Source: Haliea sp.
Lineage (GTDB): Bacteria > Pseudomonadota > Gammaproteobacteria > Pseudomonadales > Halieaceae
NCBI GenBank assembly: GCA_009937575.1
Contig: JAACFI010000004.1
Span: forward strand, 1-38,923
Reading direction: 5' to 3'
DNA: 38,923 nucleotides
Both the position numbers and the translations under genes were made by a program. Position 1 is the stretch's first letter; every line of letters begins with the position of its first letter. Positions 1 through 20,947 of this stretch are shown here, piece after piece. The notes beneath the pieces were generated by a model. That model saw only the letters and a program-made list of their open reading frames with translations, ran no database searches and was not told where the DNA came from.

Positions 1-1523
1 ATCGACACCTCCTCGTCCAGCCCGGCGTCACCCACCTCGATCACCCCGGTGGCCGCGTGGGGCACGAGTTCATCGGGCGTCGTGGCCTCAACGTTGGAGA
101 ACAGCTCCTCGGTGGAGGGCGCGCGCTCCGAGCGGGACAGGGAAAGTCCCAGTTGCCAGTCGGGGGCCAGGCTCCACAGTGCGGAGCCCGACAGGCTGAT
201 GCTGCTGAAGTCCTCGCTGCCGGCGGCCGGGGTATCCGGGTCGCGATCCACCCAGTCGCCGCGGATGCCGACCTCCCAGGTCCAGTCCCCGCGGTGAAAG
301 TCCTCCACCAGAAACAGGCCAATCTCGGTGCTCTCAGTCTCGGGCACATAAGCCTCCTCGCCAATTGCCGAGAATTCGTCGTCGCGCCACTGCAGGCCGA
401 GGACACCGTGGGCGCCGCCGATGGGGTCGTGCACCAGTTCCAGGCGGCTCTCCCAGGTCTCCCGGTCGAAGCGGGTGCCGACCTCGGCGCCCTCCAGTTC
501 CTTGTGTTCGTAATCCGTGTAGGTCAGGAAGCCGCGGGCCACCTCGATACCCGGGAAGGGCTCGTGCAGGTGCAGTATGCCGTCGTAGCGGGTCTGCTCC
601 ATGTCCAGGCGCACGAACTCCTCGCCCTCCTCTTCGTGTTCCTCTTCGTGCTCTTCCTCGTGCTCCTCTTCATGATGACCGTGGGCGCCGGGGGGAATAC
701 CGTACTCGGTCTCCAGGTGGCTGACCGCCAGGCCGGCGAATCCCTGCTGGCCGAAGTGGTAGCTGATACCGCCGGTGATGTTGTCCGCGTCGCTGTCGGT
801 GTTGGCGATATAGCCGTCGGTGTTCTCGATCTCCTCCCCGTGCTCCTCGCCTTCTTCATGACCACCGCCGGTGAGCTCCTCCTGCTCCTCCACCGCGGAC
901 TCGTCGATAGCTTTGCCGGGGATATCCAGGTCATCGGTCTCCCGGGTGCTGCCGCTCAGGTGAAAGGCCAGGGTACCGTTGCCCCCCTCCAGCCTGAACA
1001 CTCCGCTGTCCATGCCCGGGGCGTCGTCGTAACGGTATTCCAGGCCACCCTGCACGCCCTCCAGCGGTGTGCGGGGAATGCGGTTGTCGATGATATTGAC
1101 CACGCCGCCGATGGCGCCGCCGCCGTAGAGCAGGGTCGAGGGTCCGCGCAGTACCTCGATACTCTCCGCCAGCAACGCCTCCACGGCGACGCTGTGATCG
1201 GGGCTGAGGCTGGAGACGTCGGCACTGAGGGTGCCGTTCTGCAGGGTCAGGGCCCTGGGGCCCTGCTGGCCGCGTATCACCGGGCGCCCGACCCCGGGGC
1301 CGAAGGAGGCACTGGCAATGCCGGGGCGGTTACCCAGGGTTTCCCCGATGGTGGTGGCGGCCTGGCGCTGTAATTCATCGCCGGTCAATACGGTGACGGG
1401 CAGGGCGGTTTCCGCCTGCTTCTTGTGCAGGGGCACCGATACGAGTACGTGTTCCATGGGCAGCTGCTCGGCAGCCGCGTTGGCGGTGGCAAGGGCCACC
1501 GCCAGTGATGCGATACGTTTCAT
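1..1523 (-). CDS. TonB-dependent outer-membrane receptor, ZnuD-like (3' end outside window)
   Basis: Reading the minus strand from an ATG at 1523 gives an open frame of 507 codons that runs off the left edge. It starts with a signal peptide (MKRIASLAVALATANAAA), then a plug domain: 'PVTVLTGDELQRQ' near residue 45, 'GRPVIRGQQGPRALTLQNG' near 80, and the typical 'IEVLRGPSTLLYGGGAIGGV' segment near 130. Beta-barrel strands follow. Residues about 205-235 and 281-302 are very rich in His and Glu, an arrangement known from zinc receptors of the ZnuD type. The last plug and barrel features are characteristic of siderophore/metal receptors powered by TonB-ExbB-ExbD. The gene lies 38 nt downstream of a small HDH/CxxC protein and is probably co-transcribed with it. 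Zinc as substrate is inferred; copper or nickel are alternatives. Confidence 0.9.
   Translation of the reverse strand, partial: MKRIASLAVALATANAAAEQLPMEHVLVSVPLHKKQAETALPVTVLTGDELQRQAATTIGETLGNRPGIASASFGPGVGRPVIRGQQGPRALTLQNGTLSADVSSLSPDHSVAVEALLAESIEVLRGPSTLLYGGGAIGGVVNIIDNRIPRTPLEGVQGGLEYRYDDAPGMDSGVFRLEGGNGTLAFHLSGSTRETDDLDIPGKAIDESAVEEQEELTGGGHEEGEEHGEEIENTDGYIANTDSDADNITGGISYHFGQQGFAGLAVSHLETEYGIPPGAHGHHEEEHEEEHEEEHEEEGEEFVRLDMEQTRYDGILHLHEPFPGIEVARGFLTYTDYEHKELEGAEVGTRFDRETWESRLELVHDPIGGAHGVLGLQWRDDEFSAIGEEAYVPETESTEIGLFLVEDFHRGDWTWEVGIRGDWVDRDPDTPAAGSEDFSSISLSGSALWSLAPDWQLGLSLSRSERAPSTEELFSNVEATTPDELVPHAATGVIEVGDAGLDEEVS
618..683 (-). repeat. Tandem HEEE-coding 12-nt repeats in the receptor gene
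   Basis: On the minus strand this stretch codes for HGHH followed by three EEEH-like units and an acidic tail, residues 281-302 of the receptor. The 12-nt units are near-identical and in frame, so gain or loss of a unit would keep the gene open. The segment probably lies in an extracellular loop that gathers divalent metal ions. Confidence 0.8.
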
Positions 1524-14140: not shown

Positions 14141-14850
14141 TCACTCGCAGCCGCCGCTCATGCTATTGATCCATTCCTCTATCAGGGCAACGCCTTCTTC
14201 GTGGATCAGTGTGCGCCCGATCTATGGCATGCGCACATCGGGCTCGTTGGAATCCATGCGAAAAGGCGTGATCGATTCATCGGAATAACCGGGAACAATA
14301 TCGAATTGCAGGCCTCCGGAACCACCACCCGCAGCCACAGGGGTCTTACAGATACCGTAGGTTTCATCGACTTCACGCCAGTAGTCCAGGAACAGCGCAG
14401 AGTTACTGGCGAAACCTTCCGGTCGGTGACAGTGGGCGCAGTTGATGTCCAGGTAGCCCTTGGCCCGGTCTTCCAGCGGCGCCGCAGTGTCCTCCCAGTC
14501 GGGCAATTGACTTCCAGGGCCGCGAAGTTCGGCGCAGTGGAACCTTCCTCTGGCGTACACAGTGCGGCAATTTCCTCTTCTGTCGGCGGCTTTTCACCCT
14601 CTTCAATCTCTTCGGGATCGTCCAATTCTACAGGCGGCAACGATGCGTGCGCACAGTCGAAGAATGCCTGGTCTACACTCGCCCCGCCTTCAGCGGTGAA
14701 GATTCCACCGCGGCTCACTTCGGGGATCTCGCGGGCACAGATACGGTCTTCCTGTTCAAAGGGCACGTCCAGTTCCGCATGGCCGTCGTACACGATCCGC
14801 GGCAGGCCTCCCAGGCGGCGTATCCTAGGCCCCGGGAAGACTATTTGGCA
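14141..14850 (-). pseudogene. Remnant of a c-type cytochrome gene (SO2930-like), frameshift plus nonsense
   Basis: Two overlapping minus-strand frames give one protein. The upstream frame covers 'IVYDGHAELDVPFEQED' to 'NFAALEVN' (ending near 14510). The downstream frame continues as 'QLPDWEDTAAPLEDRAKGYLDINCAHCH' (in parts), with one CxxCH heme site, then 'TPVAAGGGSGGLQFDIVPG' and 'RMDSNEPDVRMP'. There an in-frame TAG (14222-14224) interrupts it; the frame resumes as 'IGRTLIHEEGVALIEEWIN' to a TGA at 14141. The joined C-terminus matches the diheme SO2930-type cytochrome family as I remember it. The expected N-terminal part with the first heme is missing. The TAG probably replaced CAG, and the shift looks like loss of one copy of a CAAT repeat. 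Confidence 0.8.
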
Positions 14851-15103: not shown

Positions 15104-15310
15104 ATGTCTACTACAACCGGCACTGTTAAATGGTTTAACGAGACCAAGGGATTCGGCTTCATCGAGCGTGAAGACGGACCCGATGTTTTTGTTCATTTCA
15201 GTTCCATCAAAGGTGAAGGCTTCAAGACCCTTTCCGACGGCCAGAAGGTCGAGTTCACTGTTACGGACGGCCAGAAAGGTCCCCAGGCGGAGAATGTTGT
15301 TCCCCTCTGA
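15104..15310 (+). CDS. Cold-shock protein, CspA family
   Basis: A 68-residue single cold-shock domain that binds single-stranded RNA and DNA and melts mRNA secondary structure. The two RNA-binding motifs are intact: RNP1 'KGFGFIERE' (about residues 16-24) and RNP2 'DVFVHFSSI' (about 29-37); '[11 protein letters not shown]' is the standard start. I chose the ATG at 15104 ([10 protein letters not shown]) rather than 15074. The gene stands alone, with a long leader and a strong terminator right after it. Whether it is cold-induced or constitutive cannot be decided. Confidence 0.97.
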
Positions 15311-15331: not shown

Positions 15332-15363
15332 CAAAAAAGGAGCTCATTGAGCTCCTTTTTTTT
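15332..15363 (+). terminator. Strong bidirectional terminator after the cold-shock gene
   Basis: AAAAAAGGAGCTC pairs with GAGCTCCTTTTTTT, loop ATT, starting 22 nt after the stop codon. The A-run on one side and T-run on the other let it also end minus-strand transcripts from the TonB operon. Confidence 0.93.
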
Positions 15364-15378
15364 ATGTCCATGGATGGG

Positions 15379-15419
15379 CCGGGTCGCGATCGACCGGGTC
15401 GCGATCGACCGGGTCGCGA
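15379..15419. repeat. 15-bp tandem repeat, about 2.7 copies
   Basis: The unit CCGGGTCGCGATCGA occurs at 15379-15393 and 15394-15408, with an 11-nt partial third copy to 15419. It lies in the 75-nt gap between the cold-shock terminator and the stop of the TPR gene. Each unit holds TCGCGA and CGATCG palindromes. No coding role is seen. Confidence 0.9.
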
Positions 15420-15435
15420 AGACGGCCTGCCCGTA

Positions 15436-16773
15436 TCAACTCTCAGCCAGTGACCGCTGCCGTTCCAGCTCGGAATCCATGTACTTGATCCACTGGGCGG
15501 CGTACTTCGATGAACGCTCGTCGCGGCTGGCAGCCTTGAAAGCCTCCCGGGCCTTTTCGTACTGCTGGGTGTTGAAGTAGGCCATACCGAGAACCAGGCG
15601 CGCATTGTCCGGGCGCTTAACCCCGCCGCGGGACAGGCCCTTGTTGATGGCGGTGATCGCCTTCTTGAACTGGTCCCCGTCCAGGTAGAGGCTGCCCAGG
15701 CGGGCGTACAGTTCCCCGGTGTCGGACTTCGCCGCCGCCTTTTCCATGGCGGGGATGGACTTATCGACCTCCTGTGCCTGGCGCCAGGCGCTGCCGGCGA
15801 TCTCCCAGTTCTTGGACTTGTCATCGATGGAGCCGTTCTTAAGACCCTTGTCCATCACCTTGGCGGCCTTGTAGGGCACGTCGGCGTTCAGGTAGAGGTA
15901 GGCGATGGTGACCTGCTCGGTACCCTTGTCGAGCATATCCTGCACGTATGCGGTTTCCATCGCCGACAGCTGCTCAGACTCTTTCTTCTGCTCGCCGTAC
16001 ATGTGCGACAGCTGCACCCAGTACTGCTTCTTCGGGTAGTACTTCAGCAGGATTTCCAGGGTGTCCACGGTCTTGTTGATGTCGTTCTTCTCGAAGTAGA
16101 GGAAGCGAGCCAGGTTGTACCACTGTTCCTTGGGAATCTTGTCTTTGGCAAGGTACATATCGATGGCCTTCTCGACATTCAGCAGGGCCTTGTTGTAGTC
16201 CTTGGTCTGGTAGTAGCCCTGGGCCAGCAACACATAAGCGTTGGCATTGGGGTTTTCGGTGACCTTGAACCACTCCAGCAGGGCGTTGATACCTTTCTGC
16301 CACTGCTCCTGCACGAAATAAAGCTGGGCGATGGTGAACTTGGTATTCACCTCCATCGCTAAGGGGATATCCGGTTGCTTCACCACATTCTCGTAGGCCT
16401 GCAGGGCCTTGGCGTAGTTTTCCTGTGAGTAATAGATGAAGGCGTAGAGGTTGTAGACGTTGGCCAGCTCGTAGCTGTTCAGCGCCTTCTTGCCGCCGGA
16501 GGCAATCATGCCATCCAGGATTTTCGCGGCAGTGGCCAGGTCCTTGGCCTCGGCGGCGGCCTGGGCCTCCGCCAGTTTTTCATATACCTTATTGCGCAGT
16601 GCGGGGGTCCTGCGGGTCTCCCGCTGTGGCTTCTTCTCTTCCTGTGCAATTGCGGAGGACAGGGGCGCGTAACCCAGGTCGCCCTGCAGCTGGGACACGG
16701 CCACCTGGGCGGCCACCAGCGGCACTGCCAGCAGGGTAGCGCGGGTCCATGTACTGGATTTAAACAATGTCAT
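15436..16773 (-). CDS. Tetratricopeptide-repeat protein of the TonB2-type operon
   Basis: A 445-residue exported protein. The N-terminus 'RATLLAVPLVAAQVAVS' looks like a signal peptide or anchor with a likely cleavage near AIAQ (residue 44). The rest is a run of TPR-like helical hairpins: 'ANVYNLYAFIYYSQENYAKA', 'NAYVLLAQGYYQTKDYNKAL', 'QWYNLARFLYFEKND', 'GELYARLGSLYLDGDQFKKA' and 'ARLVLGMAYFNTQQYEKARE'. Such a protein is the usual last member of TonB2-type clusters in Shewanella and Vibrio relatives. It probably forms a periplasmic scaffold that links TonB to its partners; this is inference from the neighbourhood. It follows tonB after 14 nt. Confidence 0.88.
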   Translation of the reverse strand: MTLFKSSTWTRATLLAVPLVAAQVAVSQLQGDLGYAPLSSAIAQEEKKPQRETRRTPALRNKVYEKLAEAQAAAEAKDLATAAKILDGMIASGGKKALNSYELANVYNLYAFIYYSQENYAKALQAYENVVKQPDIPLAMEVNTKFTIAQLYFVQEQWQKGINALLEWFKVTENPNANAYVLLAQGYYQTKDYNKALLNVEKAIDMYLAKDKIPKEQWYNLARFLYFEKNDINKTVDTLEILLKYYPKKQYWVQLSHMYGEQKKESEQLSAMETAYVQDMLDKGTEQVTIAYLYLNADVPYKAAKVMDKGLKNGSIDDKSKNWEIAGSAWRQAQEVDKSIPAMEKAAAKSDTGELYARLGSLYLDGDQFKKAITAINKGLSRGGVKRPDNARLVLGMAYFNTQQYEKAREAFKAASRDERSSKYAAQWIKYMDSELERQRSLAES

Positions 16774-16787
16774 AACGCGTTAACCGC

Positions 16788-17393
16788 CTAGTCTTCCAAC
16801 TCGTAGGTGAACTTGTTCTGTACGCCGGCCACCTCGATAGCCTCGCCGTCCACCACGCGGGGCTTGTACTTGAACTTATGGGCAGCCTTGACCGAGGCCT
16901 TCTCAAATACGCCCTGGGGTTGGCAATCGACCGCCACCGGATCCCGGATCGCACCGGAAGTGGTCACGGTGTACTCAACGATACAGTAGCCGGTAATACC
17001 CCGGGTCTGGGCGCGCCGCGGGTAGATAGGGGCAACCTTGACAATGGGCAGGTACTCGCCGTCTCCTGAAGACATTCCGGAAGTACTGATTTGAATTTCG
17101 ACTGAGGCTAGCGGCGCAGTGTTCTGTATGTCGGTATCCATATTGAGATCGATCTGCACCATCTCCATCTCGGGCGGTGGCTCATCGGGGTCTTCAACCT
17201 TTTCCGGCTTCGGCGTTGCAGCCTGCAGCTCTATCTCTTCATCAGGCTGGACGAGGTCTGCAATCTTCGTATTTTTGGTGTCCGGGTTTTCGAACTCGCG
17301 ATCAATCAGGCTGTGCATGATCATAAACAGCCCAACCACCACGGGGATGGCAAACAGTATCGAAACAATCATTCTCACTGGACTATTACCCAT
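16788..17393 (-). CDS. tonB: TonB energy-transducing protein
   Basis: A 201-residue TonB. One N-terminal membrane helix ('MIVSILFAIPVVVGLFMIM', about residues 8-26) is followed by a short acidic Pro-rich spacer ('PKPEKVEDPDEPPPEMEM') and the C-terminal TonB domain: 'VAPIYPRRAQTRGITGYCIV' and 'KASVKAAHKFKYKPRVVDG', which contacts the TonB box of outer-membrane receptors. The spacer is shorter than in E. coli TonB, as is usual for TonB2. The ATG at 17393 was chosen; it lies 5 nt after the exbD stop. The longer frame to 17426 would overlap exbD by 28 nt. Confidence 0.93.
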   Translation of the reverse strand: MGNSPVRMIVSILFAIPVVVGLFMIMHSLIDREFENPDTKNTKIADLVQPDEEIELQAATPKPEKVEDPDEPPPEMEMVQIDLNMDTDIQNTAPLASVEIQISTSGMSSGDGEYLPIVKVAPIYPRRAQTRGITGYCIVEYTVTTSGAIRDPVAVDCQPQGVFEKASVKAAHKFKYKPRVVDGEAIEVAGVQNKFTYELED

Positions 17394-17398
17394 CGCGC

Positions 17399-17830
17399 TT
17401 ACCCCGCCTCTTCGGTGGAAGCACACAGAGGCGCATCCATCAGGGGTTTGATAACGCCCAGCAACTGGCTCAACACAGACGTGGGTGCATCCACGTCCGC
17501 CTGGATTACGAAGTTCGCCTTCGGTGCCTCCTTCTTGGCCGCTTCAGCCAACCGGTAGGCCCGCTCCACTGGTATCTGCTTCTTGTCGTAGAAGATATCA
17601 CCCACAGCAGTAACCGCGAAAATTATGGTACCCCGCTCGCAGGAGTCGGTGGTATACGCCTCGGGTTTGGTAATCTCCGCGCCCGGCTCCTTTACAAAGG
17701 AGGAGGTCACAATAAAGAAGATGAGCATGATGAATACGACATCCAGCATGGGCGTGAGGTCGATTACGCCATCATCACCGCCGCTCTGCGTTCCTGCACG
17801 ACTTCCCGCTGCCATCTGACGCCTGCTCAC
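17399..17830 (-). CDS. exbD: ExbD-family biopolymer transporter (second copy)
   Basis: A 143-residue inner-membrane protein with one transmembrane helix containing the proton-path Asp ('DLTPMLDVVFIMLIFFIV') and a periplasmic domain ending in 'LSQLLGVIKPLMDA'. It works with ExbB to energise TonB. The start is the GTG at 17830: it forms a GTGA overlap with the stop of the other exbD and has GGAGGAAAAGCG just before it; the longer frame to 17851 lies inside the upstream gene. Two Cys (DSCERG and APLCAS) are unusual for the family and could form a disulfide. Confidence 0.93.
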   Translation of the reverse strand: MSRRQMAAGSRAGTQSGGDDGVIDLTPMLDVVFIMLIFFIVTSSFVKEPGAEITKPEAYTTDSCERGTIIFAVTAVGDIFYDKKQIPVERAYRLAEAAKKEAPKANFVIQADVDAPTSVLSQLLGVIKPLMDAPLCASTEEAG

Positions 17831-18240
17831 CGCTTTTCCTCCGCTGGCCAATTGACCTGTTTTACACCGGCTTCGCGTGCGGCATCGCCAACCTCGATCA
17901 AAGTCCCCGCAGTGGCGCCAGCTTCCGTCTTGACCGTAAACGACTGCTCGGGATCCGAGGCCAGCAAGCGCGCAATATTCGCCCTCACTGCGCGGATATC
18001 GATGCGGCGGTTTTCCATCCAGATCTGGTCGTCTCCGGTGATGGTCACAACAATACTGGTTGCGTCAGACTCCGGCGGGTTCTGGTTACTCTCAGGCCGA
18101 TTCACTTCTATACCAGCCTCCTTGAGGAAGGAAGCGACCACGATGAAGAAAATCAGCATGATGAACACCACGTCGAGCATAGGCGTCAAATCAATCTGAG
18201 CCTCATCGGCCTCGGCATCTTGGTTTCTCTTGCGCATCAA
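17827..18240 (-). CDS. exbD: ExbD-family biopolymer transporter (first copy)
   Basis: A 137-residue ExbD/TolR homologue, with 'AQIDLTPMLDVVFIMLIFF' as its single membrane helix including the conserved Asp. The periplasmic part ('DATSIVVTITGDDQIWMENRRI') has the usual alpha/beta fold, and the tail 'AREAGVKQVNWPAEEK' resembles the final strand. It differs clearly from the second ExbD outside the helix, so the two are probably not redundant: a heterodimer or two stator types are possible. It follows exbB by 10 nt and overlaps the next exbD by 4 nt. Confidence 0.93.
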   Translation of the reverse strand: MMRKRNQDAEADEAQIDLTPMLDVVFIMLIFFIVVASFLKEAGIEVNRPESNQNPPESDATSIVVTITGDDQIWMENRRIDIRAVRANIARLLASDPEQSFTVKTEAGATAGTLIEVGDAAREAGVKQVNWPAEEKR

Positions 18241-18250
18241 TCAAGCTCTA

Positions 18251-18778
18251 TCAATGATCAGTGGTCAGGTTGTCTTGCAGGAACTCACTCTCCCGCTGGG
18301 CAATATTGGTGACATAGGTGTTGGCAAAAATCCCGGACAGGGCAGCCACCATACCCGCCATGGTCGGGATTGTGGCCTGCTGGACACCGCCGGCCATTGA
18401 TTTTGCATCGCCACCCCCGGTCACGGCCATGATGTTGAAGACTTCGATCATACCGGTCACGGTGCCAAGCAGGCCCAGCAGCGGGCACAAGGCGACCAGG
18501 GTCTTGATCAGCGGCAGGAATCGATTGATCTGCATGTTGGTCTGCGAAATCAGCATGTTGCGAATCTGCTTTGCCTCCCAGGACTTTCGCTCAGCGCGAC
18601 CTTCCCACCTGGCGATTACCTGGGAAACGTCCTTCTTCCAACCGAACTGCAGATACCATACCCGCTCGAAGATCAACACCCACATCACCAACAACAGAGC
18701 GGCAATCAGCCACAGGACGTCACCGCCCTTGTCCATAAAGCGGAGCAGGACTTCAGGCAAATCTCCTAGTCCACCCAT
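18251..18778 (-). CDS. exbB: ExbB/TolQ-family proton channel (short form)
   Basis: A 175-residue inner-membrane protein with three hydrophobic helices: 'VLWLIAALLLVMWVLIFERVW' (about 19-39, in parts), 'LIKTLVALCPLLGLLGTVTGM' and 'TIPTMAGMVAALSGIFANTY'. 'PLLGLLGTVTGMI' and 'GGVQQATIPTMAGMVAAL' are MotA/TolQ/ExbB signatures. Together with ExbD it forms the proton-driven motor for TonB. The upstream stop and this start form TGAAATG, so translation is almost certainly coupled. Confidence 0.93.
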   Translation of the reverse strand: MGGLGDLPEVLLRFMDKGGDVLWLIAALLLVMWVLIFERVWYLQFGWKKDVSQVIARWEGRAERKSWEAKQIRNMLISQTNMQINRFLPLIKTLVALCPLLGLLGTVTGMIEVFNIMAVTGGGDAKSMAGGVQQATIPTMAGMVAALSGIFANTYVTNIAQRESEFLQDNLTTDH

Positions 18779-18779
18779 T

Positions 18780-20162
18780 TCAAGACCTCAGATTGGCTTC
18801 AGTATGCTCTGCAATCATGCCGGTGGTCTGCTCATCCAGTATGTGAATGACCTTTTGGGCGCGACCATTCACGATCGTGTGCAGAAGCACCGTCGGAATT
18901 GCCACCAGAAGGCCGAGCACGGTGGTAATCAGTGCACCGGAAATACCGCCGGCCATCGCCTTCGGATCGCCCGCACCGAAAATGGTGATCGCCTGGAAGG
19001 TGATGATCATACCGGTCACCGTACCCAGCAGTCCCATCAGGGGGGCCACCGCGGCAATGATCTTCAGCAGGGTCAGGCCGCTCTCCAGCTTGGGAGTCTC
19101 CTTCAGGATACCCTCGGACAGTTTCAACTCGAGGGTCTCGGTGTCCATGGTCGGGTTGTCTTCATGGATCTTCAGAACGCGACCCAGGGGATTGTTCTCG
19201 TTGGCCTTGTCGCTCTTCAGCTGAGAGTTGACCTTACCGCCCACGATCGTGAGGACAAACATCCGGTAGATCGCCAGCAGGAACGCAAAGATACCCACCG
19301 CAGTAATGGCATAGCCAACATAGCCGCCCTGATGCCAGCGCTCTTCCAGGGTCGGTGTATCGATGATCGCCGCCAGGAACGAACCGCCCGTGGGGCCGGT
19401 CGGATCGATGCCGAAGGTATTCAGCCCACCAGTAGCAGCAGCCAAATCTGCAGCCCAGCCTGTATAAGGCCCGGCAGGCTGGCGCGGCAATTCCATCAGG
19501 GTGCCATTGTCATAGCTGAGATAATTGCCGTTGGTATCCACAACGTTGAAGGCACCTACACGGAGAACTTCGCGCTCTGCCCGCTCTCCCGCAGGGGAGG
19601 CCACTTGCGCGGTAAACGTCGTGACAACACCGGTCTCGCGAGTTTCACGCATCAATTCGAACCACACGCGCTCGATCTCCTCGATACTGGGAAGGGTATC
19701 GGCGCCACTCATCTTGCCCACTAACTCGCGCAGGAATGTTTCGCGCCCCGGAAACTGGGCAGAGGCCAGGGACACTTCGATGTTCGAGGCCAGATCTCCC
19801 GAGGCAGAGGTCAGGTGCCCGAACAACTCTGTCAAGGTACCGAGTTTCTCCTGCAGTTGCTTCTGCTTGGCAACAATCAGCAACTCGTTCTCCTCAAACG
19901 CGTCTTCCAGTTCGGCACTGCGCTGTTCCTCGCGGGCACGCTCGGCCTCCGCCTGCTTCAGGGCTGCGGCCTGGTTGGCCTTGTCCTTGGCGAAACGTTG
20001 CTCACGAGCACGATTTTCCTTGGATTCGGCCACCTGGCCCCGCTTGACGAAGTCAAGCAGTTGGTCCAGTGACTGGGCGTCCTGTGCCAGGGCGGAACCG
20101 GCGGACAATGCCAGAGTGCCACACAGTGCCAGGGCGGCGGCTTTTACAATTTTAACGCTCAT
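18780..20162 (-). CDS. TtpC-like long MotA/TolQ/ExbB protein
   Basis: A 460-residue ExbB-type protein with a large N-terminal addition. It has a cleavable-looking signal peptide (LSAGSALA/QDA, residues 1-26), then a charged coiled coil (about 45-115, rich in E, K, R and A) and a periplasmic region. Three membrane helices follow: about 270-292 ('VGYAITAVGIFAFLLAIYRM'), about 365-385 and about 405-430. 'PLMGLLGTVTGMIITFQAI' is the ExbB signature. TtpC is required in Vibrio TonB2 systems; the size and neighbourhood match. Its ATG overlaps the DUF3450 stop by one base (TGATG). Confidence 0.9.
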   Translation of the reverse strand: MSVKIVKAAALALCGTLALSAGSALAQDAQSLDQLLDFVKRGQVAESKENRAREQRFAKDKANQAAALKQAEAERAREEQRSAELEDAFEENELLIVAKQKQLQEKLGTLTELFGHLTSASGDLASNIEVSLASAQFPGRETFLRELVGKMSGADTLPSIEEIERVWFELMRETRETGVVTTFTAQVASPAGERAEREVLRVGAFNVVDTNGNYLSYDNGTLMELPRQPAGPYTGWAADLAAATGGLNTFGIDPTGPTGGSFLAAIIDTPTLEERWHQGGYVGYAITAVGIFAFLLAIYRMFVLTIVGGKVNSQLKSDKANENNPLGRVLKIHEDNPTMDTETLELKLSEGILKETPKLESGLTLLKIIAAVAPLMGLLGTVTGMIITFQAITIFGAGDPKAMAGGISGALITTVLGLLVAIPTVLLHTIVNGRAQKVIHILDEQTTGMIAEHTEANLRS

Positions 20163-20947
20163 CAGTTAGCCTCCGGGGCCGAAACAGGCATCGTCAACAA
20201 TTCAATAGTGGCCTGCTTCTTCGCAATACGGATACCCTTGCGAATAGCGGCTTCATACTCTCCCGCGGGAAGGTCTACCCAGGCTCCGGCACTCTTGTCC
20301 CATGCACCGGAGATGGCACCATCAGTGGTCTGGTAAACCAGGGTGATACGGCCTACCCGAAGGAAGTCGACATCACGCGGCGACCCATTGAGTTCTATCG
20401 TGCCCCGGTAGGTATCTACACCTCGACCATATTGCAGTTCGATATTGTAGGCCTCCAGTACACCGCGAAACTTCTCAGCCACAGTGACATCGGCACGATC
20501 GAGGTTGTCGCGAAGGAACTGTATACGCTGCAACCGTTCCTCTTTCTGGAATGGCACGTCCAGTTCAACGAACTGCTCAAGGCCATCGATCATGCGAATC
20601 ACCAGCGGTGTCATCTGACGCTGGATGACCGTCACCTGGGAGATGGACTCATCGATCGACGCCACTCGCTTCATCTGGTTTTCGATCTGGCTCTCCAGGC
20701 GGGCATTGTAAACCTTGAGGCCGTCGATCTGCTTGACCACGGTCTTGTAGTCACTCAGCAGGTCGCGGGTCTCGTCAGCCAGGCGATCTATCTTCACCTG
20801 CGACTTGCGCGCCGCCTGGTTCTTGGCCTCTCCAACCGCCAGGATGGAGTCCAGTGTACTGGCCTGCACGGCGGCCACGGTACCCACAAGGGCGCCCGTG
20901 GAAACCAGCGCAGCGATCAACACGTTTTTCAATCGATGCATAGTCAT
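20162..20947 (-). CDS. DUF3450 exported coiled-coil protein
   Basis: A 261-residue protein that begins the TonB2-type operon. It has a signal peptide ('NVLIAALVSTGALVGTVAAV', cleavage near VQA/S), then a long coiled coil (about 45-110: 'DETRDLLSDYKTVVKQIDGL', 'YNARLESQIENQMKRVASID'). A compact domain follows ('FLRDNLDRADVTVAEKFRGV', 'RVGRITLVYQTTDG'). DUF3450 proteins are almost always encoded next to a TtpC/ExbB/ExbD/TonB cluster, and probably act in the periplasm with TtpC. The biochemical role is unknown. The start may be the ATG at 20947 or the one two codons later. Confidence 0.9.
   Translation of the reverse strand: MTMHRLKNVLIAALVSTGALVGTVAAVQASTLDSILAVGEAKNQAARKSQVKIDRLADETRDLLSDYKTVVKQIDGLKVYNARLESQIENQMKRVASIDESISQVTVIQRQMTPLVIRMIDGLEQFVELDVPFQKEERLQRIQFLRDNLDRADVTVAEKFRGVLEAYNIELQYGRGVDTYRGTIELNGSPRDVDFLRVGRITLVYQTTDGAISGAWDKSAGAWVDLPAGEYEAAIRKGIRIAKKQATIELLTMPVSAPEAN

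Follow-up and report, generated by a model that had tools for sequence, protein, structure and literature searches.

A Ttp operon with two ExbDs in Haliea sp.

The window analysed here comprises 38,923 nucleotides of Haliea sp. (assembly GCA_009937575.1, contig JAACFI010000004.1), and holds at positions 15436–20947, on the minus strand, seven adjacent genes which, according to the list of open reading frames (ORFs) and their Pfam matches, encode TtpB, TtpC, ExbB, two ExbDs, TonB, and TtpD. This operon is a Ttp (TonB2-type) energy transducer, a known machine, initially studied in Vibrio, with a variation in its ExbD complement. In such machines, ExbB-type subunits and ExbD convert the proton gradient into movement of TonB, which opens TonB-dependent transporters of the outer membrane. 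The main result concerns TtpB and TtpC, whose periplasmic parts are homologous and are likely to touch each other through their coiled coils. The original prediction, made from the sequence alone, had described a complete TonB2-type operon of seven genes, and all seven ORFs are found where it placed them, on the minus strand and with matching Pfam families.

The first gene, ttpB (20162–20947), encodes a DUF3450 protein of 261 amino acids (Pfam DUF3450, E 5.6e-85), with an apparent signal peptide (judged by eye, with cleavage near VQA-S) followed by a long helix and five strands. It shares 1 base with ttpC (18780–20162; MotA_ExbB, E 1.5e-29), whose product consists of an apparent signal peptide, a DUF3450-like periplasmic domain (residues ~27–270), and a MotA/TolQ/ExbB membrane core (~271–460). 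These genes are followed by exbB (18251–18778), for a short ExbB of 175 amino acids (MotA_ExbB, E 2.4e-20), the two ExbD genes exbD1 (17827–18237; 136 amino acids from an ATG at 18237; ExbD, E 8.3e-24) and exbD2 (17399–17830; 143 amino acids from a GTG at 17830; ExbD, E 4.7e-18), and tonB (16788–17393; 201 amino acids from an ATG at 17393; TonB_C, E 1.6e-14). The last gene, ttpD (15436–16773), encodes a TPR protein of 445 amino acids with an apparent signal peptide (also by eye), TPR_2 being its best TPR family (E 2.3e-14). The starts of exbD1, exbD2, and tonB are the likely ones, picked by eye; with them, the two exbD genes overlap by four bases and the remaining genes almost touch, all spacings being overlaps or gaps within about 15 nucleotides.

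A known counterpart is the tonB2 operon of Vibrio vulnificus (ttpB2-ttpC2-exbB2-exbD2-tonB2-ttpD2), which has the same six components, with ttpB2 (DUF3450, 255 amino acids) first, ttpC2 second, and ttpD2 (TPR, 425 amino acids) last (PMC6957404). It has a single ExbD, whereas the window carries a second one. TtpB2, TtpC2, and TtpD2 have been reported in the same article to be essential for TonB2-dependent siderophore uptake, which rules out the idea that nothing is known of the DUF3450 and TPR proteins. The original prediction had assigned no defined biochemical role to either of them, and as far as their mode of action is concerned this still stands. Native TtpB2 of V. vulnificus could not be replaced by the TtpB2 of other species, whereas foreign TtpD2 and TtpC2 work (PMC6957404). 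According to a review, the TtpC of V. cholerae cannot substitute for that of V. anguillarum (PMC5524678). The same review presents TtpC as homologous to TolR; the TtpC of the window is of the ExbB/TolQ type by Pfam and NCBIfam. Two clusters of this kind, TonB2 and TonB3, have also been reported in Teredinibacter turnerae, also a marine gammaproteobacterium, with ttpB, ttpC, exbB, exbD, tonB, and ttpD, and the available text of that article does not mention a second ExbD (PMC10734418).

Homology between TtpB and the periplasmic domain of TtpC

By profile comparison, TtpB and the periplasmic domain of TtpC are homologous, a relationship that had been missed in the original prediction, which otherwise anticipated both the complete operon and the coil contact discussed below. 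Profiles of 73 TtpB and 73 TtpC sequences, taken from 107 TtpB-TtpC pairs, were aligned by hhalign in a colinear manner over 194 columns (96.7%, E 3.2e-10). The alignment persists when the coiled coil is removed (93%, E 3.5e-7), and the coiled coils alone reach 19.6%; three reversed-profile controls stay at or below 3.2%, and TtpB against the membrane part of TtpC gives 0.2%. Moreover, when ORFs are searched with duplicate loci included, a hidden Markov model (HMM) of TtpC only matches 196 of 318 TtpB ORFs at E≤1e-4, and a TtpB-only HMM matches 29 of 315 TtpC ORFs at the same threshold. A point against this relationship is that TtpC stays below membership of DUF3450 in Pfam: TtpB scores above the curated cut-off of PF11932 (284.9 vs. 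32.6 bits), but TtpC does not reach it (17.8 vs. 32.6 bits, E 0.0021).

Single-chain AlphaFold2 models of TtpB and TtpC (predicted local distance difference test, pLDDT, 90.3 and 88.9; predicted template modelling score, pTM, ~0.63) have a common topology, which starts with a long helix (in TtpC with a break near residue 108) and continues with two shorter helices, five strands, and a helix. Due to the pTM, the placement of the coil with respect to the sheet is uncertain in both. The coiled coils previously predicted at about residues 45–110 of the DUF3450 protein and 45–115 of TtpC are matched by the long helices of these models (TtpB 4–129, signal peptide included; TtpC 32–107). A fold search of the PDB with the TtpB model gave no match at E≤0.001, and a profile search with TtpB yielded, among the best 60 of 138 matches, almost only matches to the coiled-coil part. 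In the case of TtpC, the best fold match of the model is TolQ/ExbB, and the profile matches to those proteins fall within the membrane core (319–441).

The presence of DUF3450 on ExbB-like proteins is already on record, since an article on the evolution of MotAB describes this domain as appended to the N-terminus of ExbB-like subunits, with a function unknown there (PMC12505986). TtpC also resembles the long ExbB of Serratia marcescens, which has a signal sequence and a periplasmic extension, and whose pentamer holds two ExbD helices (PMC9008036). However, that extension is proline-rich and of up to 150 residues in its group, in contrast to the ~240 residues of coil plus sheet of TtpC, and the available text names neither DUF3450 nor TtpC. 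In the open literature covered, outside of which most subscription papers lie, no title deals with TtpB-TtpC homology or contact, and both the homology and the coil covariation are new relative to the print found.

Covariation between the coiled coils of TtpB and TtpC

A direct contact between the coils of TtpB and TtpC is likely, as suggested by covariation analysed by mean-field direct coupling analysis (DCA) with 80% reweighting. This analysis was carried out on 200 operons holding all six parts (the others being left out), on 251 pairs, and on 316 pairs. The latter were obtained from 378 by removing repeats of the last 180 TtpB residues, and include 70 pairs from loci added after the 251-pair set; a gap filter removed none (251/251 and 316/316). 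In the 200 operons, the top five TtpB-TtpC couplings (in window numbering) are 85-73, 95-91, 49-46, 99-91, and 78-66, and form a parallel diagonal inside both coils. A coil band, defined as a difference TtpB minus TtpC of −6 to 14 inside the coils and comprising about 2.9% of all pairs, takes in 5 of the top 5 couplings, 6 of the top 10, 8 of the top 20, and 10 of the top 40 in the 251-pair set; the respective numbers for the 316-pair set are 4, 5, 8, and 14. Other offsets, or an antiparallel order, show scattered pairs at most within the coil block (251 pairs).

This pattern depends on the true pairing of the sequences. A best-band scan of the 316 pairs reached a −log10 p of 8.3 at top 40, while seven shuffles gave 2.35 or less. 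Together with these seven, 17 shuffled TtpB-TtpC pairings lacked the band: four had 0 of 12 listed pairs each, and six had 0–1 pairs each among their top 20. The coupled residues recur with the heptad period of 3.5 on both helices (p 0.008 and 0.004). Opposite charges exceed expectation at 85-73 (130 vs. 81.5), 99-91 (73 vs. 38.8), and 78-70 (88 vs. 60.8); at the same three pairs, like charges are fewer than expected. The coil contact between DUF3450 and TtpC put forward in the original prediction is consequently backed by covariation in 316 paired operons and by shuffles without the pattern, with a modest depth and a partial persistence in splits.

Several observations weigh against such a direct contact. 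The effective depth of the 316 pairs is 231, which is lower than the 480 columns, the 80% reweighting is the sole correction for phylogeny, and the coil band was fixed after the first DCA result and not before. Enlarging the set from 251 to 316 pairs increased the band count at top 40 only, and lowered it by one at top 5 and top 10. One of four random halves had no band pair in its top 10, and the band held 1 of the top 20 in the half with the same gene order and 3 of the top 20 in the half with other orders. Individual pairs survive the random and clade splits (85-73 ranks first in one clade set and 49-46 in the other), and the band survives only in part, the rows of the clade split being assigned by locus number (that is, by search of origin) and not by tree. 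Other pairs of operon proteins, with TonB among the control partners, were scored on the 200 rows, where raw scores are 1.50 for TtpB-ExbD, 1.86 for ExbB-ExbD, and 2.05 for TtpC core-ExbD vs. 1.45 for TtpB-TtpC. In the best-band scan of these rows, TtpB-TtpC is the clear leader at top 5 only (5.6 vs. ≤1.97), TtpB-ExbD comes near it at top 10 (4.31 vs. 4.52) and top 20 (4.02 vs. 4.23), and at top 40 three of ten other pairs, namely ExbB-ExbD, TtpC periplasmic-core, and TtpC-ExbB, stand above it (5.58, 4.23, and 4.07 vs. 3.73). Counts in the best diagonal band at top 20 failed to separate protein pairs. With 251 pairs, one of six shuffles came close to the true pairing in its whole-matrix band count (5 vs. 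6 of 10; 8 vs. 10 of 20), with 0 couplings in the coil band. Within the set of 14 band pairs, opposite charges are not in excess at 59-64 and are in deficit at 42-42. Finally, a foreign TtpC2 works in V. vulnificus and a foreign TtpB2 fails, so that simple pairwise matching would be no explanation for these exchanges.

These data may also be read in a different manner, in which TtpB and TtpC would form separate homo-oligomers, or TtpB would merely help TtpC to fold or assemble, and the covariation would be indirect or derived from shared operon ancestry. Each protein could self-pair in the same way because they are homologous, and both the weak split samples and the other operon pairs, with raw coupling that is comparable or higher and band scores that are higher at top 40 (200 rows), agree with this possibility. 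Nevertheless, it is rather unlikely; against it stand the top couplings on one parallel diagonal and one helical face, several opposite-charge pairs, and shuffled pairings in which the band is missing or far lower at top 40.

Conservation of the operon in relatives

The seven-gene set is not a chance assembly. The order TtpB-TtpC-ExbB-ExbD-TonB-TtpD (U-C-B-D-T-P) is found in 152 of 198 de-duplicated operons, two adjacent ExbDs appear in 35 of them, and ttpD is the usual final gene in relatives. These operons were located via DUF3450 and are enriched in the family and order of the window. Initially 318, they were reduced to 259 by dropping repeats of the last 180 TtpB residues, and to 198 by requiring 5.2 kb or more of sequence on the downstream side of the DUF3450 gene; the fetched loci are a selected part of the genome-search matches. 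As the sample was gathered through DUF3450, its counts say nothing on the frequency of TtpC without this domain. Gene orders that read, for example, UDCBTP or UCBTDP are probably due to over-extended or unlabelled ORFs. The overlap between ttpB and ttpC is also common, with at least one shared base in 78 of 107 pairs when starts are trimmed to that of the window, and in 199 of 250 with the longest ORFs.

In a sample of the class, DUF3450 exceeds the Pfam cut-off in 87 of the 369 genomes. With a threshold of E≤1e-20, it is present in 236 of the 390 genomes from the order and in 57 of the 398 that represent the phylum. In the plasmid collection (chromids included), TtpC and TtpB each have matches in 22 records, with the same number per genus for both; 19 records are common to the 20 listed for TtpC and the 20 listed for TtpB. 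The tblastn identity of TtpC to the listed Vibrionaceae records is 33–38%. One record from this family, of Salinivibrio kushneri, has the six genes annotated in order, and this six-gene layout recurs in a Pseudoalteromonas record, where the final gene is annotated as hypothetical only; the region lacks annotation in a Vibrio record from the collection. The genome that contains the window resembles those of Halieaceae: among 30 named loci or loci from metagenome-assembled genomes, the TtpB of the window is 91% identical to that of a Halioglobus, 84–85% to those of two Seongchinamella, and 72–75% to those of Haliea.

Some loci depart from this organization. The TtpC frame is split in two at L044, L117, and L118, by sequencing error or a true break. 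L068, L111, and L262, whose operons have two ExbDs, hold an additional TtpC-sized ExbB-type ORF after ttpD. In L075 and L080, another TtpB-TtpC-ExbD set (with two ExbDs in L075) lies beside a full operon, with no short ExbB or TonB recognised for it within the stretch covered.

The second ExbD

The membrane segment of ExbD (LTPMLDVVFIMLIFFI) is identical in exbD1 and exbD2 of the window, and nearly identical elsewhere. The exbD2 product has two Cys residues, as does each second copy of the family of the window. In a tree of ExbDs, exbD1 groups with the first and single copies of relatives, and of the 27 second copies, 25 cluster together with weak support (84/86). Within the family, the 19 second copies share a clade with a long stem (100/100, 1.51) and the 19 first copies share another one (100/100, 0.64), and this tree argues against exbD2 being a recent tandem copy of exbD1. 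A single origin of the second ExbDs is not settled by this tree, as it has few columns and long branches that meet (a warning of the tool). Two ExbDs are encoded in 18 of 28 related loci and one in the other 10 (L112–L138 plus L140, without L139; L141 is cut).

Ton systems with two ExbDs, ExbD1 and ExbD2, are also described in Xanthomonas campestris and other bacteria; systems of that type are not known to include TtpB, TtpC, or TtpD. Since the membrane segments of the two ExbDs are identical and their periplasmic domains divergent, both proteins most probably sit together, as a heterodimer, in a single pore. The Thr residues at the presumed pore positions, which we take to be the counterparts of T148 and T181 of Escherichia coli ExbB, are conserved in no fewer than 197 of 200 TtpC and ExbB proteins (aligned by eye), and the membrane Asp is kept in 199 of 200 first ExbDs.

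Two ExbB-type and two ExbD proteins, with pore threonines kept in both ExbB types, could also correspond to two motors encoded in one operon, in which one ExbD would be the partner of TtpC and the other that of the short ExbB. This arrangement is unlikely, because 152 of 198 operons hold TtpC and ExbB yet a single ExbD, indicating that two ExbB-type proteins do not need a second one. In addition, the TtpB-TtpC-ExbD-ExbD set of L075, with no short ExbB or TonB there, would place TtpC with two ExbDs.

Regulation and genomic context

Within 300 nucleotides upstream of the operon, no Fur-box-like site has been found in the window (the best one matches 10/19, a value equalled by all 60 shuffles), in contrast to V. 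vulnificus, for which a potential Fur site has been reported upstream of ttpB2 (PMC6957404). No clear site was detected in 29 related loci either (one of them from Oleispira). Four of 111 scored loci have Fur-box-like sites of at least 14/19 upstream of ttpB (L108, 18; L051, 15; L035, 15; L036, 14), so some relatives may be regulated by iron. For the organism of the window, constitutive service to many receptors is plausible. Its genome contains 57 matches to TonB-dependent receptors over the cut-off (fragments included), five to TonB_C, and seven to ExbD. It also contains a second ttp operon (L032; G000:C145:30000-42816) of six genes with one ExbD, which encodes a longer TPR protein (591 amino acids) and has a gene for a 786-amino-acid TonB-dependent receptor nearby.

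The neighbours of the operon are the housekeeping genes folA-thyA-lgt, and folA lies upstream in 28 of 30 related loci (L112–L141), the exceptions being L127, at a contig end, and L139, from Oleispira, which has none of these neighbours. A Tol-like action on the envelope instead of nutrient uptake would agree with these neighbours, with the Fur-box results in the window and in the 29 loci, and with the best NCBIfam matches of TtpC, ExbB, and both ExbDs (TolQ or TolR, all far under the cut-off), but it is highly improbable given the TonB C-terminal domain, the full Ttp gene set, the 57 receptor matches, and Vibrio genetics, which point to siderophore uptake (PMC6957404).

On the 3' side of ttpD, an inverted repeat with a T run (15333–15361, minus strand) resembles a terminator (read from the sequence, unscored). 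Between both lies a short GC-rich tandem repeat with three near copies of CGCGACCCGGTCGAT (15375–15420, by eye), and beyond the terminator-like repeat a convergent cold-shock gene is located on the plus strand (~15104–15310, by eye). Further away, two overlapping minus-strand frames at 14206–14793, one with a CAHCH haem-type motif, resemble remnants of a broken cytochrome-like gene (by eye), and a fragment of a TonB-dependent receptor occupies the left edge of the window (6–521).

A model for the Ttp motor and its implications

In the explanation that best fits these data, TtpC is an ExbB-type core with a large periplasmic DUF3450-like domain, and TtpB is a secreted homologue of that domain. 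Both would pair via a heteromeric coiled coil, parallel and close to in register, that would provide the motor with a TtpB-TtpC periplasmic stalk or collar, while TtpD would probably scaffold the rest. Direct binding, stoichiometry, geometry, the ExbD heterodimer, and the substrates are inferred, and the explanation as a whole, from the Ttp motor to the stalk or collar, the TtpD scaffold, and the ExbD heterodimer, is modestly favoured. A more specific version, in which TtpB and TtpC go back to an ancient duplication or fusion and together make up an obligate stalk, a parallel heteromeric coiled coil, on a motor of mixed TtpC/ExbB composition whose axle is an ExbD1/ExbD2 heterodimer, is tentative and somewhat doubtful. 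If true, the periplasmic force-transmitting superstructure of a Ton motor would be made of paralogous proteins.

The system is widespread across the order and phylum samples. DUF3450/TtpB is needed for uptake in Vibrio, and the predicted TtpB-TtpC interface, defined at residue level, makes the mechanism of TtpB directly testable, including the reason why the TtpB2 of one species does not substitute for that of another.

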